64,000 bases of DNA from Candidatus Baltobacteraceae bacterium (GTDB lineage: Bacteria > Vulcanimicrobiota > Vulcanimicrobiia > Vulcanimicrobiales > Vulcanimicrobiaceae). Both the position numbers and the translations under genes were made by a program. Shown in pieces: positions 11,695-63,098 of the stretch (its first letter is position 1; each line of letters starts with the position of its first letter). Where the stretch lies: positions 1 to 64,000 of the forward strand of contig DASXGW010000013.1 in assembly GCA_036488875.1 (NCBI GenBank). Direction: 5' to 3'. The notes under the pieces are model-generated. The model saw only the letters and a program-made list of their open reading frames with translations, was not told where the DNA came from and made no database searches.

Positions 11695-11716
11695 CGAGTG
11701 AGGGGTGCTTGCGATC

Positions 11717-12493
11717 ATGCAGCCGCTTTCCGTTGCAGCTTTTCTGGTAGCGACCGCCGTGGCGTCACCGTCGCCACAGCCGACGACGTTAAAGACGATC
11801 GTCACGGTGCACTCGTCGCAGTTCTGTACGGCGTTGGGGAAAGCGGTACGTCCGGTACTTGCCGGCCTCATTCTCAACGATAGATTGATCGAACGAGGGC
11901 GTACTGCGTTTGCGGACGCGGGGTACCGGGCGACGCACGGCGCTATCGACAGTCCCTCCGTTGCCGAAGTCATAGGGCCGCCTGCTACGTCGCAATCGCA
12001 GGGCGACGCCACGATCGTCGAGATCCGGCAGCGCCGGCTCGCCAAGAATCTCGAGGACGGCGTCGAGACCATCGAAGCGATGCTCGCCGACAAGAAGCGC
12101 TTTGCCGGTATTACGGCAAGCGATGAAACGGCCAAGCTCTCGGCGATCGACTCGCAACTCAACGCGATTGCCGCCAAGCAGCGCACGGCCGTCGACCTCA
12201 TCTCCGGACAGGTCGAAAACTCGGAACTCGTGACGCTGTACAATCGCGACCCGTCGTGGGGCGGTGCCGACGCGACCAACGGAGTGAGCCCCTTGGAGGC
12301 GATGAAAGCCGGTCACGGCGGGGAAGGCGACGCGATCTACAACGTCTGGCAAGCCGCGACGATATCCCAGCGGCCGTTCTACGATCCATACGAGCCCTTC
12401 ACGCGGGCGCTAGTGAGCGACGAGGCGTCGATCTCCGATGCAGAAAGCGTCGCCTCGAAGAGCATCGTCGAAGCCTCGGGAGGATGCCAATAG
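11717..12493 (+). CDS. Secreted protein of an unrecognised KTIVTV-SS-C family, copy 1
   Basis: Function unknown. A signal peptide (MQPLSVAAFLVATAVASPSP) precedes the conserved block LKTIVTVHSSQFCTALG, and the protein ends SIVEASGGCQ. The middle is helical, with a motif of the type DARQRxLxxxIxxxxxxxxxxLxD (here EIRQRRLAKNLEDGVETIEAML). The same N-terminal block and a Cys near the C-terminus occur in the genes at 13373, 14200 and 62394. The two conserved cysteines could form a disulphide outside the cytoplasm. An in-frame GTG 12 nt upstream is an alternative start. A transporter gene follows 12 nt downstream. Confidence 0.8.
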   Translation: MQPLSVAAFLVATAVASPSPQPTTLKTIVTVHSSQFCTALGKAVRPVLAGLILNDRLIERGRTAFADAGYRATHGAIDSPSVAEVIGPPATSQSQGDATIVEIRQRRLAKNLEDGVETIEAMLADKKRFAGITASDETAKLSAIDSQLNAIAAKQRTAVDLISGQVENSELVTLYNRDPSWGGADATNGVSPLEAMKAGHGGEGDAIYNVWQAATISQRPFYDPYEPFTRALVSDEASISDAESVASKSIVEASGGCQ

Positions 12494-12505
12494 GAAGGAT
12501 AGCCG

Positions 12506-13345
12506 ATTCTCGTCGCGGTTAGCTGTGGAATCGCGGCCGCGGCGTTCTACGGGTCGGCCGATTTCCTCGGAGGTTTCGCGTCAAAACGCGCGCCGATGCT
12601 TGCCGTCACGCTTATCGCGCAGTCGGTCGGGCTGATCTGCCTGCTCGGCGTCGTGCCGTTTTACGGCGGTCATCCACTGCATTCCGAGCTGCTCTGGAGC
12701 GCGGCCGGCGGCGTCTTCGGCGCAATAGGTATCGCGCTGCTCTACCACGCGCTTTCGATCGGAAAGATGGGTGTGGTTTCGCCGATCACGGCCGTCATTG
12801 CCGCGGCGTTTCCCGTCATCGCCGGAGTCGTCCGCGGTGACGCGTTGACGTGGTTCCAACTGCTCGGCATCTTCGTCGCACTCGTCGCCGTCGTGCTGAT
12901 CTCGATGTCGAAAGAAGAAAGTGGAGAGCGCGAGATCGCGACCGAAGGCGTCAAAGAGGCAATTGCGTCGGGCGTCGCAATCGGTCTCTTTTTCTTGGCG
13001 CTGGGTCTGGGTCAGCGCGGCCACGGCTTCGGCGGTTTGCTCGCCGCCCGCATCGGATCGGTCGTGTGTCTGCTGCTGTTGGCGCTTGCCGGCCGAACGC
13101 CGATGCGGCTGCCGCGCGCGACGCTTGGAACGGTCGTGGCCTCCGGCGCGATCGACATGACCGCGAACGCGCTCTACGTCGTGGCCGCGCAAACCGGCCA
13201 GCTGGCCGTTGCATCGGTGCTGACCTCGCTCTACCCGGCCAGCACCGTTTTTCTCGCCCGTTTCGTCCTGCGCGAACGCTTGCAGCTCGTCCAGAAGTTC
13301 GGCGTGGGTTTGGCGCTGATCGGCGTGGCGCTCATCGCGGCGTAG
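12506..13345 (+). CDS. EamA/DMT-family transporter, probably starting at an ATT codon
   Basis: Ten-helix membrane transporter of the drug/metabolite superfamily with two EamA repeats. The second ends TSLYPASTVFLARFVLRERLQLVQKFGVGLALIGVALIAA. The first ATG in frame (12596) would remove the first helix. Upstream, the frame encodes ILVAVSCGIAAAAFYGSADF, which is the expected first helix, and it stays open back to a TAG at 12500. The only plausible start there is ATT at 12506, with AGGAAGGA 6 nt before it. The substrate cannot be told. It sits between copies 1 and 2 of the secreted KTIVTV family. Confidence 0.85.
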   Translation: MLVAVSCGIAAAAFYGSADFLGGFASKRAPMLAVTLIAQSVGLICLLGVVPFYGGHPLHSELLWSAAGGVFGAIGIALLYHALSIGKMGVVSPITAVIAAAFPVIAGVVRGDALTWFQLLGIFVALVAVVLISMSKEESGEREIATEGVKEAIASGVAIGLFFLALGLGQRGHGFGGLLAARIGSVVCLLLLALAGRTPMRLPRATLGTVVASGAIDMTANALYVVAAQTGQLAVASVLTSLYPASTVFLARFVLRERLQLVQKFGVGLALIGVALIAA

Positions 13346-13372
13346 TGGTAATCTGGGGACGGAGGAACTCGT

Positions 13373-14209
13373 ATGCTGCTAGCATGGATCAGCTTCTTGC
13401 TCACCGCTATGGTATCTCCGCCCGCGCCGCAGCCCTCGCCGCCCAAGACGATCGTCACCGTGCATTCGTCACAGTTCTGCACGTACTTGGTCCTGGCGAT
13501 CCGGCCGGCCCTCGTCGGTTTGATGCGCAACGACCAACTGATCGACCTGGGACGATCGACCCTGGTTGCCGGCGACCGCGATGTGAAATTCGGCGGCGCG
13601 CCGGTCTCGTCGTTCAATCAGCAAGGCGCGGCGCAGTGGACCGCCTCGGAGGGCGACGTCATGCTGCTCGACGCCCGGCAGCGCCAGCTGACCGCGGCAA
13701 TCACGCAAAACATGGAGATGGTCCAAACGGTGCTGGCCAATCCAAACGCGCCCAAGCCCGACGGCGACGACAAGGCCAAGCTCGCGCAGATCAGGGCGCA
13801 ACTGGACCTGATTCTGCACGAGCAGCGCAGCGCAACCAACATTATTGCCGGTAACACCGCCACGTCGGACCTAGCGGGCCTCTATAACTCCTCGTCGGCC
13901 ACCGGCATCGAAAGGGACGTGGTTGCGCCCATAACGCCGGCGGATCAGAGCGGCACTTCGGCACTGGGCGCGCGCCTGACGTCGCAGAATAACGTCGTGC
14001 CTCAAAGGGGAGGAATAAGGGGCTTCGCGCCAACGACCGATCCCACCACGGCATCGCAAGCAGCGATAAACCGCGCCGCAGGCTCGAACACGTTCGACAG
14101 TCCGTACGCGAAGCTCGCCAGCGCGTTAAAGATCGATCAAGCGATGATCGGACAAACCGAACAAACCGCGGCGCACGCGATTATCGAAGCGGTAGAAGGT
14201 TGCGAGTAG
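13373..14209 (+). CDS. Secreted protein of the KTIVTV-SS-C family, copy 2
   Basis: The 278-residue paralogue has a signal peptide (MLLAWISFLLTAMVSPPAPQP), the block PKTIVTVHSSQFCTYL and then LVGLMRNDQLIDLGRS, which is nearly identical in copy 3. The middle contains LLDARQRQLTAAITQNMEMV and LDLILHEQRSATNIIAGNTATSDLAGLYN. The end is AIIEAVEGCE. A good ribosome-binding site (GGAGG, 7 nt before the ATG) decides the start. It is closest to copy 3, which overlaps it by 10 nt, so the pair looks like a tandem duplication. Role unknown. Confidence 0.82.
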   Translation: MLLAWISFLLTAMVSPPAPQPSPPKTIVTVHSSQFCTYLVLAIRPALVGLMRNDQLIDLGRSTLVAGDRDVKFGGAPVSSFNQQGAAQWTASEGDVMLLDARQRQLTAAITQNMEMVQTVLANPNAPKPDGDDKAKLAQIRAQLDLILHEQRSATNIIAGNTATSDLAGLYNSSSATGIERDVVAPITPADQSGTSALGARLTSQNNVVPQRGGIRGFAPTTDPTTASQAAINRAAGSNTFDSPYAKLASALKIDQAMIGQTEQTAAHAIIEAVEGCE

Positions 14210-15006
14210 CGCTCTTGCTCTTAGTTGTTCTTGGAGCGCCGTCGCCGCAGCCGGCGCTCAAGACCATCGTAACCGTGCATTCGTCACCCTTCTGTACGGC
14301 ATTGGCAAACTCGGTAAAACCCGCGCTCGCCGGTCTGATGCGAAACGACCAGTTGATCGACTTGGGGCGATCGGCATTGATGGCCGGCGACCGCAACGCG
14401 AAATATGGCGGCGAGCCAACCTCGTCGTTCAACCAACAAGGACCGGCGCAGTGGTCGCCCACCTCGGGCCAGACCGCCATACTCGATTCCCGCCAGCGCC
14501 AGTTAGCTTCGGCGATCGACCACAACGTCGCGACGATCGAAACGATTCTTTCCGATCCGAAGCATTTGGCAACGGGTTCGGGCACGCAAGAGCAGGCGAA
14601 CCTGGCGGCGATCAAATCGCAACTGAGCGCGGTTCTCGATCGTCAGCATACGGCGGCAAATATTCTCGCCGGAACTGCCGATACGTCGGATCTTGCAAGC
14701 CTGTTCAATGCCGGAGCGGTCTCATTTATCAACGGAGGTGCGACGGGCCAGGCAGACCCGCTCAACGGGCTTTCGCCGTTGCAAGCGCGGCTGACGTCGC
14801 AGAAGAACATCGTCAAAGGTGCGGGTTCGACAAGCGACCCGGTCGCATCGTCGCAAGTCAGGATAGCTCAAGCGTCGGCATCGCGGCCTTTATATAGCCC
14901 ATACGAAAAGCTGGCCGATGCGATGAGAGTCGATCAAATTCTCATCGGTCGGTCGGAAAACGCCGCATCGCAGACGATCGTCGATGCCGCGGTCGGGTGT
15001 AAGTAG
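14200..15006 (+). CDS. Secreted protein of the KTIVTV-SS-C family, copy 3
   Basis: The 268-residue paralogue begins at a TTG, or possibly at a second TTG 15 nt later. The signal sequence is short (RVALLLLVVLGAPSPQP). The conserved block is LKTIVTVHSSPFCTALA, followed by LAGLMRNDQLIDLGRSALMAGDRNAKYGG, very close to copy 2. The middle repeats the ILDSRQRQLASAIDHNVATIETIL pattern and the end is TIVDAAVGCK. The shared phrase SPLQARLTSQKNIV matches LGARLTSQNNVV in copy 2. Function unknown. Confidence 0.8.
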   Translation: MRVALLLLVVLGAPSPQPALKTIVTVHSSPFCTALANSVKPALAGLMRNDQLIDLGRSALMAGDRNAKYGGEPTSSFNQQGPAQWSPTSGQTAILDSRQRQLASAIDHNVATIETILSDPKHLATGSGTQEQANLAAIKSQLSAVLDRQHTAANILAGTADTSDLASLFNAGAVSFINGGATGQADPLNGLSPLQARLTSQKNIVKGAGSTSDPVASSQVRIAQASASRPLYSPYEKLADAMRVDQILIGRSENAASQTIVDAAVGCK

Positions 15007-58070: not shown

Positions 58071-59298
58071 GCGTGGCGTCGTTCAACGCAGACCGGCGAT
58101 TTCCGGCGATGCGGGCGCAGATCGTGCGCGCTTCTCCAACGTCGACGCCGGTTCTTCTTACGAACAACTTGCGCCAAAACGCCTTGCCGCTGAGCTTTGC
58201 GATGAGGTCTGAAGCCTCGCGGGCATCGATGGGTCCGGCCGGCGTTTCCACCCAGACCGTCCGCTCGTCGCCTAGGCCCAGCGGCAGACGGTGAAGCACC
58301 TGCGACTGTTCGTCGGCCCAGACTTTGTCGTCGCCGAAGCGGTCGCGCAGCGCCGATTCGCACGCTTCGAAGACGCTCAAATCGCGCTCGGCGTTGAACT
58401 CGGCGGCGAGCGCGTAGGGAACGATCCGCTCGCGTAAGGCGCGCGCCGGTTCGCTGGGTTTGTCGGCGATTGCGTCGAGCACCCGGAAATCGTCCCACCG
58501 GAGAAACTGGTCGATCGCGTCGAGCCCGCGAGGATTGGGCCAGAGCTCGCGCAGTACGTCCTGCAGCACGCGTTCGAAGATGCGGGTGGTATGGTGGAAA
58601 TACACCGAGGCAAACATCATATAGCGCGCGGTAACGAACGACTCGAGCGCGACGACGCCGCGCGCGTCGATTCCGACCGAGAGACGCCCGTTGCGCTCGA
58701 ATAAGCGCAGCGACGCGACGAGCTGCTCGGCGTCGTAACGCCCGCTGGCGACGCCCGTAAAATACGCGTCGCGCTGCAAATAGTCCATTCGATCGGCGTC
58801 GAGATTCGGTCCGCTGACGAGCTCGCGCAAAGCGGGATAGCGGCTCTGCGCGTCGCCGAGCACCAAGCCGAGAACGTCGTCGGGCGAAACCTCGAGGTCC
58901 GAGAGTCCCCGGCGCAAGCCGTCGAGCGCGAGCAGCTCGCTCGTTCGGGCCTCGTGTGCGACGCCCAAGACCGCTTCGCACGCATGGCTGAAGGGCCCGT
59001 GACCGATGTCGTGCAGCAGCAGCGCGGCGCGCACGAGGCGCCGCTGGTACGCAACGTCGGCGTCGCCGCCGAAGAACGCGCGCCCGTGGCGAACCAGCTC
59101 GTCGAAGGCGCGCGTACCCATCGCCAGGGCGCCCAGAGCGTGCGTAAAGCGCGAGTGTTCGGCCGAGGGGAACGCAAGGTACGCCAGTCCGAGCTGGCGC
59201 AAGCGCCGCAGTCGCTGCAGCGCCGGCGCGTCCAGCAACCGCGCCTCGGCTGTGGATAGTTCTATGAAGCGGTGGACCGGGTCAAAAATCCGTTTCAA
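58063..59298 (-). CDS. HD-domain phosphohydrolase (dNTPase/SAMHD1-like)
   Basis: Predicted metal-dependent phosphohydrolase, 411 residues. It has FDPVHRFIELSTAEARLLDAPALQRLRRLRQLG and His53 in RFTHALG. His96-Asp97 lie in LLLHDIGHGPFSHA. LDADRMDYLQRDAYFTGV gives the last metal Asp. The pattern fits proteins annotated as HD superfamily phosphohydrolases related to dGTPase. It starts at TTG 59298, with the dnaG ATG on the other strand sharing that base. dGTPase-like genes next to dnaG occur in other bacteria, which supports this assignment. Confidence 0.9.
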   Translation of the reverse strand: MKRIFDPVHRFIELSTAEARLLDAPALQRLRRLRQLGLAYLAFPSAEHSRFTHALGALAMGTRAFDELVRHGRAFFGGDADVAYQRRLVRAALLLHDIGHGPFSHACEAVLGVAHEARTSELLALDGLRRGLSDLEVSPDDVLGLVLGDAQSRYPALRELVSGPNLDADRMDYLQRDAYFTGVASGRYDAEQLVASLRLFERNGRLSVGIDARGVVALESFVTARYMMFASVYFHHTTRIFERVLQDVLRELWPNPRGLDAIDQFLRWDDFRVLDAIADKPSEPARALRERIVPYALAAEFNAERDLSVFEACESALRDRFGDDKVWADEQSQVLHRLPLGLGDERTVWVETPAGPIDAREASDLIAKLSGKAFWRKLFVRRTGVDVGEARTICARIAGNRRSALNDATHE

Positions 59299-61139
59299 TG
59301 CCAGGCAGCTTCGCTCGTCTCATTAAATACCATCTAGAAGTGCGATACGACCAGGGCGTTTTACGCGAGATCCACGCGCGCGTGGACATCGCCAACTTCA
59401 TCGGCGAGTACGTTCCGCTGCGTAAGCGCGGAAACGATCTCGTCGGCTTGTGCCCGTTCCATTCCGAAAAGACGCCGTCGTTTCACGTTCACCCCGATCG
59501 CGGATTCTTCAAGTGCTTCGGATGCGGCGTGGGCGGCGACGTCATTACGTTCCTACAGAAACTCGAGAACGTCGCGTTTGCCGAAGCGGTACGCACGCTC
59601 GCCGTCAAAGCGGGCGTCGAACTCGAACCCGAGAATCCGCACGCCGCTCGCGCGCGAAGCGAACGGGAAGCGATCTACGATGCGAACCGCTTGGCGGCGG
59701 CGTTTTTCGCTCGCGCCTTGCAAAGCGAGGCCGGCGCGCGGGCGCGCGCGTACTGCGAAAAGCGAGGTTTCTCGGCGGCGACCGTCGAGCGTTTCGGCCT
59801 AGGATACGCACCCGATTCGTGGGACGCGCTCGTCGACGATCTGCGCGAGAACGGGGTCGATCTCGCATTGGCCGCAAAGGCCGGTTTGGTGAAGCCGAGT
59901 CAGCGCGGAGGCTTTTACGATTTTTACCGGGACCGGCTGATGGTGCCCACGTACGCGACTACCGGCGAGGTGATCGCGTTCGGCGGTCGCGCGCTCGGCG
60001 ATGCCGAACCGAAATACCTCAACACCGCCGGCACGCCCGTCTATACCAAAGGACAACATCTGTACGCGCTCAACGTCGCCCGGCGGGCTGCGCAAAGCGA
60101 CCGAACGCTTATCGTCGTCGAAGGGTACCTTGATTGCATCGCGATGCATCAAGCCGGTTTCGAAAATGCCGTGGCGGCCTTAGGGACGTCCTTTACCCCC
60201 GAGCAAGCGACCGAGCTTCGGAAATATGCCGAGTACGTGTACTTGTGCTTCGACGGAGACATCGCGGGCAATACGGCTGCAACCAAAGCCGTCGACGTCG
60301 CGTCTAAGGCAATCGAGCACACCGGGTCTGCGGTCAAGATCGTGCTTCTCCCGCCGGGTGAAGATCCGGACAGTTTCCTGCGGCAGCACGGAGCCGCGGC
60401 GCTTCGCGACCAGTTGGAGCGCGCCAAACCAGCCATCGAGTTCAAGATAGACGCCGAGATCGATCGCTTACGCGCCGGCTTTGACACGCCGGCAAAAATC
60501 ACCCCAAAGGCCGAAGCGCTGATTCGTCAGCTCACACCGCGCGAGGAGTGGGATCGCTGGCGCGTGTACGTCGCGGGTCGACTGCAGGTGAACGTCGACG
60601 ACCTTAGGAATAGCCGGTTTCTCGCAAACGGGGCAAACTTCGCACCACGCTCGCCTGTCCCGGCGAGCGGCGTGGGCAGCCGCCACACGCGAGCCTCGAT
60701 CGAGCCGCTCTCGTTCGAACGTGAGGTCATGAGCATCGTGCTCGAAGATCCCGCTCTCGCAACGGAGTACGCTCAACGCATCCCTTCGGCGCGCTTCCGC
60801 AACGAAATCTATCGTCGGATCTACGAGCGCTTCGTCGAAGCCGCTTCGACGATACGCACGACTGCCGACGTGTTCGGACTCTTCGCGGAAGATCAGGCGA
60901 GTCTCGACGCGTTGGCCACGTTGGGACGGCGCGACCGCAGCTCGACGGTTCGCTACGGCGGCTCCGACGAGCGACGGGCGCATCTGGAGCGGGTGGTCGA
61001 ACGGCTGCAGCACGAGGACGAGCAGCGCCGATACCAGGAGGTGTCGCGTCTCATCGACGAGCATTTGGCTGCGGGTCGCCCGGTCTCCGACGAACTTCGC
61101 GGTGAGTTCGAGACGCTCGTGGCCCGCTTAAAAAGGTAG
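59298..61139 (+). CDS. dnaG: DNA primase DnaG
   Basis: RNA-primer synthase for replication. The CHC2 zinc finger (CPFHSEKTPSFHVHPDRGFFKCFGCGVGGD) starts near residue 50. The core has YRDRLMVPTYATTGEVIAFGGRALG, and the Toprim acidic residues lie in VVEGYLDCIAMHQAG and CFDGDIAGNTA. The C-terminal helicase-interaction domain is present but diverse. About 613 residues from ATG 59298. A GTG at 59340 (RYDQGVLREIHARVDI) fits the usual primase N-terminus equally well and would free the shared start with the divergent gene. Confidence 0.95.
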   Translation: MPGSFARLIKYHLEVRYDQGVLREIHARVDIANFIGEYVPLRKRGNDLVGLCPFHSEKTPSFHVHPDRGFFKCFGCGVGGDVITFLQKLENVAFAEAVRTLAVKAGVELEPENPHAARARSEREAIYDANRLAAAFFARALQSEAGARARAYCEKRGFSAATVERFGLGYAPDSWDALVDDLRENGVDLALAAKAGLVKPSQRGGFYDFYRDRLMVPTYATTGEVIAFGGRALGDAEPKYLNTAGTPVYTKGQHLYALNVARRAAQSDRTLIVVEGYLDCIAMHQAGFENAVAALGTSFTPEQATELRKYAEYVYLCFDGDIAGNTAATKAVDVASKAIEHTGSAVKIVLLPPGEDPDSFLRQHGAAALRDQLERAKPAIEFKIDAEIDRLRAGFDTPAKITPKAEALIRQLTPREEWDRWRVYVAGRLQVNVDDLRNSRFLANGANFAPRSPVPASGVGSRHTRASIEPLSFEREVMSIVLEDPALATEYAQRIPSARFRNEIYRRIYERFVEAASTIRTTADVFGLFAEDQASLDALATLGRRDRSSTVRYGGSDERRAHLERVVERLQHEDEQRRYQEVSRLIDEHLAAGRPVSDELRGEFETLVARLKR

Positions 61140-61153
61140 TAAAAAATTCCGAG

Positions 61154-61164
61154 AAAGGAGGTGA
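61154..61164 (+). promoter_or_regulatory. rpoD: Perfect Shine-Dalgarno of rpoD
   Basis: AAAGGAGGTGA matches the anti-SD end of 16S rRNA along 11 bases and lies 11 nt before the ATG at 61176. It is the longest such match noticed in the window. It decides against the in-frame GTG at 61161, which is inside it. Confidence 0.8.
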
Positions 61165-61175
61165 GAGCGAAAACG

Positions 61176-62342
<1,167 letters not shown>

Positions 62343-62393: not shown

Positions 62394-63098
62394 GTGATAC
62401 TCTCGATTGCCGGCCTTCTTTTCGCCCTGATACCGCCCGCCGGGCCGGTCGCGACCTCCGCCGCCTCGCCGGGACCTGCGGTGGCGCCACGCCCACTCAA
62501 GACCATCGTCACGGTGAAGTCGTCGCCGTACTGTAACGCGCTCGCCGAGCATTTCAACGGAGCGTTCGTTCCGATGGTCGCAAACGACCGCGTCTTCGAT
62601 GCAGTCGACGTGCAGCTCGACGATATGAACGTCATGTTCAACTATCCGGACTACGTCAATCGGTTCATGGACCTGCGCGCCAAGATCGTCAAGGAGTCGG
62701 GAACGCTCGAGCAGTCGCTCAACCCAATTCGCGCGCAGATCGACGCCCTTCGTGATTCGGCGTCGTTAACGACCGATCCGCAAGCCGCCAAACAGATGAA
62801 GGACGCTGCGGCGCAACTGCAGGACGCGTATCTGCACCAGTTTCAGCTTTCGACCGACCTCATGAGCCTAGCTCACGCGATGCTGAACTATAACATTATG
62901 CGTGGACAGCATCCGCTCAACGGTTGGACGCCGCATGACAACATGGTGCCGGCCGACGAGAAGAACGTCAAAGTCGTTCTGCACTTCCCCCAGCAACGCC
63001 AAACCATCGGCTGGGGAGAAGACAAAGCGGTGGATATTGCTACGACCGCAGCAGAAACGCAGTGCTCGTCGGCAGCGTCGCCGTCGCCGAAACCCTAG
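62394..63098 (+). CDS. Secreted protein of the KTIVTV-SS-C family, copy 4 (divergent)
   Basis: The 234-residue protein starts at GTG 62394 with a signal peptide (ILSIAGLLFALIPPAGPVA). It then has LKTIVTVKSSPYCNALAEHF, the same block as the genes at 11717, 13373 and 14200. The middle differs. It ends TAAETQCSSAASPSPKP, with a Cys 11 residues from the end. It is the most diverged of the four, lacks the DARQRQL block and sits after rpoD. Its stop overlaps the stop of the next, convergent gene (CTAG). Function unknown. Confidence 0.78.
   Translation: MILSIAGLLFALIPPAGPVATSAASPGPAVAPRPLKTIVTVKSSPYCNALAEHFNGAFVPMVANDRVFDAVDVQLDDMNVMFNYPDYVNRFMDLRAKIVKESGTLEQSLNPIRAQIDALRDSASLTTDPQAAKQMKDAAAQLQDAYLHQFQLSTDLMSLAHAMLNYNIMRGQHPLNGWTPHDNMVPADEKNVKVVLHFPQQRQTIGWGEDKAVDIATTAAETQCSSAASPSPKP

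Follow-up and report, generated by a model that had tools for sequence, protein, structure and literature searches.

The four-helix bundle is a common fold type. The described proteins nearest to the family analysed here are the ligand domain of the Tar chemoreceptor (4z9j) and the NarQ sensor (6xyn), both extracytoplasmic four-helix bundles similar in size to the extracytoplasmic bundle predicted for the family. In a receptor, a sensor domain of this kind is flanked by two transmembrane helices, whereas the family proteins have only one strongly hydrophobic stretch, located N-terminally. The likeness to chemoreceptors and sensors extends to gene order, with the founder gene of the family (see below) adjoining cheA-cheW.

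The window, i.e., the whole analysed stretch of 64,000 nucleotides, contains four family members on the forward strand. Three of them encode two-cysteine proteins predicted to be exported: W1 (258 aa, 11717..12493, Cys codons at about 11825-11827 and 12485-12487), W2 (278 aa, 13373..14209, Cys codons at about 13478-13480 and 14201-14203), and W3 (268 aa, 14200..15006, Cys codons at about 14293-14295 and 14998-15000). W1 could alternatively start at an in-frame GTG at 11705, and W3 starts with a TTG inside the end of W2. The fourth member, W4 (234 aa, 62394..63098), is of a short type and follows directly after dnaG (59298-61139) and rpoD (61161-62342). The initial annotation, made from the letters of the window, had described three secreted-type paralogues at 11717-15006 and counted a fourth sequence, which is W4. 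The three open reading frames were found at these positions, and they are selected coding genes, since codon position 2 is far better kept than position 3 (identity 0.74-0.75 and 0.48-0.51, respectively, for W1 against its same-genus orthologue and for W2 against W3). Their GC3 was 0.68-0.78. Chance open reading frames were ruled out by the codon-position and profile evidence. The sequence blocks that had been pointed out, KTIVTVHSS(Q/P)FC, RQRxL (here RQR(R/Q)L), and an end of the form GC(Q/E/K), are common to W1, W2, and W3. The signal peptides claimed for the three proteins agree with their hydrophobic N-termini (Kyte-Doolittle maxima of 2.3-2.6 within the first residues), which are followed by a Pro/Ser-rich segment, and the rest of each protein is nowhere as hydrophobic.

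A DMT transporter had also been assigned to the cluster, and the gene between W1 and W2 (12506..13345, forward strand) is a real EamA gene (E=3.8e-19). Near its expected start, no ATG, GTG, or TTG was found; there is an ATT at 12506, with an in-frame TAG two codons 5' of it. The same ATT and the in-frame stop two codons upstream were observed in the same-genus genome G001 (locus L073). The ATT is probably the start codon, a rare one conserved in both same-genus genomes. A promoter scan across the W1-W3 cluster gave no signal above chance.

The profile of W1-W3 recovered ten family genes in the window's genome (G000), including W4, and the same ten were recovered with a profile of 43 diverse sequences (A4). 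One of these paralogues (G000:C3:107666-108353, L070) is split over two reading frames and is either a pseudogene or an assembly error. Profile alignments were full-length, with E-values down to 1e-80, and in profile-profile comparison W1-W3 matched the founder subfamily at E 3.5e-18 and the short type of W4 at E 5.7e-13. With the 43-sequence profile, the family was detected in 103 of 149 genomes of the phylum: 93/99 in the window's family-level group (f1), 4/4 in a second family of the same order (f2), 6/14 in another family of the same class (f3), and 0/32 in other classes of the phylum, where 26 unlisted genomes were taken as other-class, like the genomes listed just before them. The copy number ranged from 1 to 10 per genome with no obvious pattern. 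The names Baltobacteraceae and Baltobacterales have been published (PMC10582173) and probably apply to f1. When peptide patterns of the founder subfamily were run against 84,980 GTDB species, 28 loci were confirmed, all with titles of Eremiobacterota, Eremiobacteria, or unnamed bacterium; an earlier pattern scan of GTDB based on the alignment of W1-W3 had confirmed zero loci. On these sequence searches, the family is so far restricted to one class of the soil phylum Eremiobacterota, the pattern scan of GTDB genomes being the sole basis for this outside the phylum.

No family had been recognised in the initial annotation, and sequence searches of Pfam, NCBIfam, PHROG, and PDB likewise returned no match, so that a known domain was rejected for these four libraries. 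No Pfam family was common to more than one of the 43 members at E 0.01. A plasmid-borne family was also considered and dropped, as W3 had no match among plasmids. In the libraries and papers covered, neither the family nor its two-cysteine rule nor its spread across the class appears to have been described.

W2 and W3 had been taken for a recent tandem pair. They are in tandem, overlapping by 10 bp, but the duplication is not recent, because the proteins are 48% identical and the third codon positions are saturated (0.48 identical). In the tree, W1 grouped with the single family gene of G001 (support 99/97) and W2 with W3 (99/96), all four forming one clade (97/97). On this tree, the split between W1 and W2/W3 is older than the divergence of the window species and the G001 species. 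The gene order in G001 is RNase J, DMT, and one family gene; therefore, the cluster was rearranged or partly lost there. W1-W3 would represent a local, genus-level expansion at the RNase J-DMT locus. Between the window's genome and G001, identity was 52% for the family member, 77% for the DMT protein, and 93% for RNase J. The DMT gene is no functional partner of the family; it adjoins family members in the present genus-level branch only, the remaining paralogues being located elsewhere.

Every lineage of paralogues has kept a locus of its own (neighbour gene names that lack a Pfam check were read from sequence). The tree is unrooted, and the subfamilies labelled founder on account of their conserved position and wide spread sit downstream of cheC-cheA-cheW at 19 loci, including one in the window's genome, often with fliR-flhB-flhA-pilZ on the 5' side and ImuA-DnaE2 after. 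Genes of the W4 type follow dnaG-rpoD in the window and at L098, L104, L106, and L107. Other members lie by cox15-ctaB (L099, L100, L102) or next to aroC-aroK-aroB and priA (L101), and RNase J is the neighbour in the window, in G001 and, for another subtype, at L105. No partner gene was shared among about 60 loci. No FlhA-family gene at all was found in G025 (eight family matches) and G005 (five), and FlhA was present with no family copy in G019 and G022; strict dependence on flagella was ruled out by these two pairs of genomes.

Several further features were seen around these loci. A block of BlaI, M56 (BlaR1-like), pentapeptide-repeat, and CBM9-like genes lies between cheW and the founder gene at L041, L059, L071, L079, and L081, and is missing in other genomes. 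A few bases 5' of the founder start, a conserved element, AAGCAGG-N20-TAGAAT, was observed in several genera (L071, G000:C10:48952-48985), and the pattern AAGCAGGN{17,23}TANNAT occurs once in the window's genome, at the L071 founder site. FHIPEP genes come in twos in many genomes of the group: a copy of ~850 bits adjoins the che genes, and a second, of ~640 bits, is located elsewhere and is also present in genomes that lack the first. At L088-L091 (f2), a family member is divergently paired with a gene for an exported-looking protein of ~150 aa (TRNIILGGAA...LIINHNRKVHERYAEDA).

Exactly two cysteines were present in 43/43 aligned mature proteins, which, with the confinement to one class of Eremiobacterota, is the kind of result that the initial annotation had named as support for its reading. 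In W3 mature numbering, C20, Q137, and C255 were invariant across the 43 sequences, I11, N37, D38, and E241 were at >=90%, and N97 was found in 33/43. The AlphaFold model of W3, built with 31 natural relatives as input, has four long helices (18-57, 77-105, 118-145, and 222-253; mean pLDDT 74, pTM 0.67), and that of a founder-subfamily member likewise has four (16-54, 56-88, 101-150, and 198-232; mean pLDDT 79.7). Most helix residues have pLDDT >90, while the connection between helices 3 and 4 (pLDDT <50) is long and mostly unordered in both models. In both models, one cysteine stands where helix 1 begins and the second where helix 4 ends, so that the two lie at one end of the bundle. Since the start of helix 1 meets the end of helix 4 in an up-down-up-down bundle, one disulphide is likely to fasten the two ends. 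A VKOR-type disulphide-forming enzyme is encoded in the window's genome, and the predicted placement and this gene are compatible with disulphide formation. Of the exported disulphide fold proposed before, export and the invariant cysteine pair are supported, and the bond itself is likely on the models. On a helical wheel, none of the seven residues C20, N37, D38, N97, Q137, E241, and C255 deviates by more than about 70 degrees from the hydrophobic face of its helix, so all of them are directed at the core of the bundle. The conserved polar ones may have a purely structural role. Pro-rich stretches follow the signal peptide and often also occur at the C-terminus. Several members have a signal peptide with no charged n-region, and the N-terminus may be an uncleaved anchor rather than a cleaved signal peptide. 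A known fold was rejected: in Foldseek searches of the PDB, neither model had a match at E 0.001, and generic helical bundles only were returned.

We favour, with moderate confidence, a joint reading in which the family consists of class-limited, multi-copy, Sec-exported, disulphide-clasped four-helix bundles, each a stand-alone binding or scaffold protein. The family and the fold are well supported, and the binding or scaffold role is the one that we infer, because there is no partner gene, the conserved core is rigid, polar residues face the core, and the loop is variable. W1-W4 would be Sec-exported soluble proteins, presumably cleaved and located in the periplasm. The mature protein would be an antiparallel four-helix bundle with a disulphide joining the helix 1 cysteine to the helix 4 cysteine, with N37, D38, N97, Q137, and E241 facing the core as a polar pocket, and with helices 3 and 4 joined by a long, variable, Pro/Gly-rich loop. 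Each copy would be a clasped, rigid scaffold that works by itself, periplasmic or on the surface, and binds its own ligand or envelope partner via the variable loop and the polar pocket; specificities would have diverged as copies duplicated and drifted at separate loci.

Two rival readings are still live, a structural role in the envelope and an accessory role in chemotaxis. The proteins might be structural, with clasped helical rods stiffening or coating the envelope and Pro-rich ends that link them through the wall, in which case a specific ligand would not be involved. The Pro-rich stretches at both ends, the many copies lacking partner genes, and the fast divergence relative to the DMT protein and RNase J of the same two genomes fit such a role, but the core polar residues are conserved beyond the needs of a rod and the copy number follows no obvious pattern; we regard it as possible, although unlikely. 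Somewhat more doubtful is a motility or chemotaxis accessory family, in which the founder would act on the periplasmic side together with the flagellum or chemoreceptors, e.g., as a stand-alone, sensor-like four-helix bundle touching receptors, and the other copies would be derivatives. The 19 founder loci directly 3' of cheC-cheA-cheW, often after fliR-flhB-flhA-pilZ, speak for this, as does the Tar ligand domain among the weak fold matches. That match, however, falls short of significance (E 2.1), motility genes adjoin neither W1-W4 nor most paralogues, multi-copy genomes lack FlhA (G025, G005), some flagellar genomes (G019, G022) lack the family, and flagella are absent from Vulcanimicrobium, a member of the phylum that is in culture (PMC9758169).

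A bolder version, to which we assign little probability, makes the founder gene, which ends the flagellar-chemotaxis operon, a free-standing periplasmic sensor bundle with input to the chemotaxis array; copies of this detached sensor would have spread within the class to many loci, each reading another ligand. The similarity could in principle also be due to chance, i.e., unrelated secreted proteins sharing a signal peptide, a Pro-rich linker, and one cysteine: some pairs fall to 20-25% identity, and the weakest similarity is largely in the N-terminal block. This is extremely improbable, being contradicted by the full-length profile alignments, the profile-profile matches, the conserved residues in all four helices, and the synteny kept within each lineage.

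The work delimits a family present in nearly all sampled genomes of a common soil lineage, often in several copies, and if a ligand were found, part of how these bacteria handle their surroundings would be explained. With its fold, likely disulphide, and conserved core, the family lends itself to clear tests in a phylum that has a member in culture. As it stands, this is one more lineage-specific exported family with a putative role only.

The AlphaFold bundle matched Tar weakly in Foldseek (E 2.1, TM 0.33/0.47), and neither the Tar (4z9j) nor the NarQ (6xyn) match was significant (E above 1); the 43 family sequences did not match the 4HB_MCP or TarH-type sensor-domain profiles of Pfam. Generic and designed helical bundles (8gl3, TM 0.59 on the target) have the same up-down four-helix topology, a likeness of shape in which a sequence relation to the family is absent. 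In contrast to the Tar and NarQ sensors, the family proteins are short, with no transmembrane anchor or signalling domain seen, and have two invariant cysteines at the two ends.
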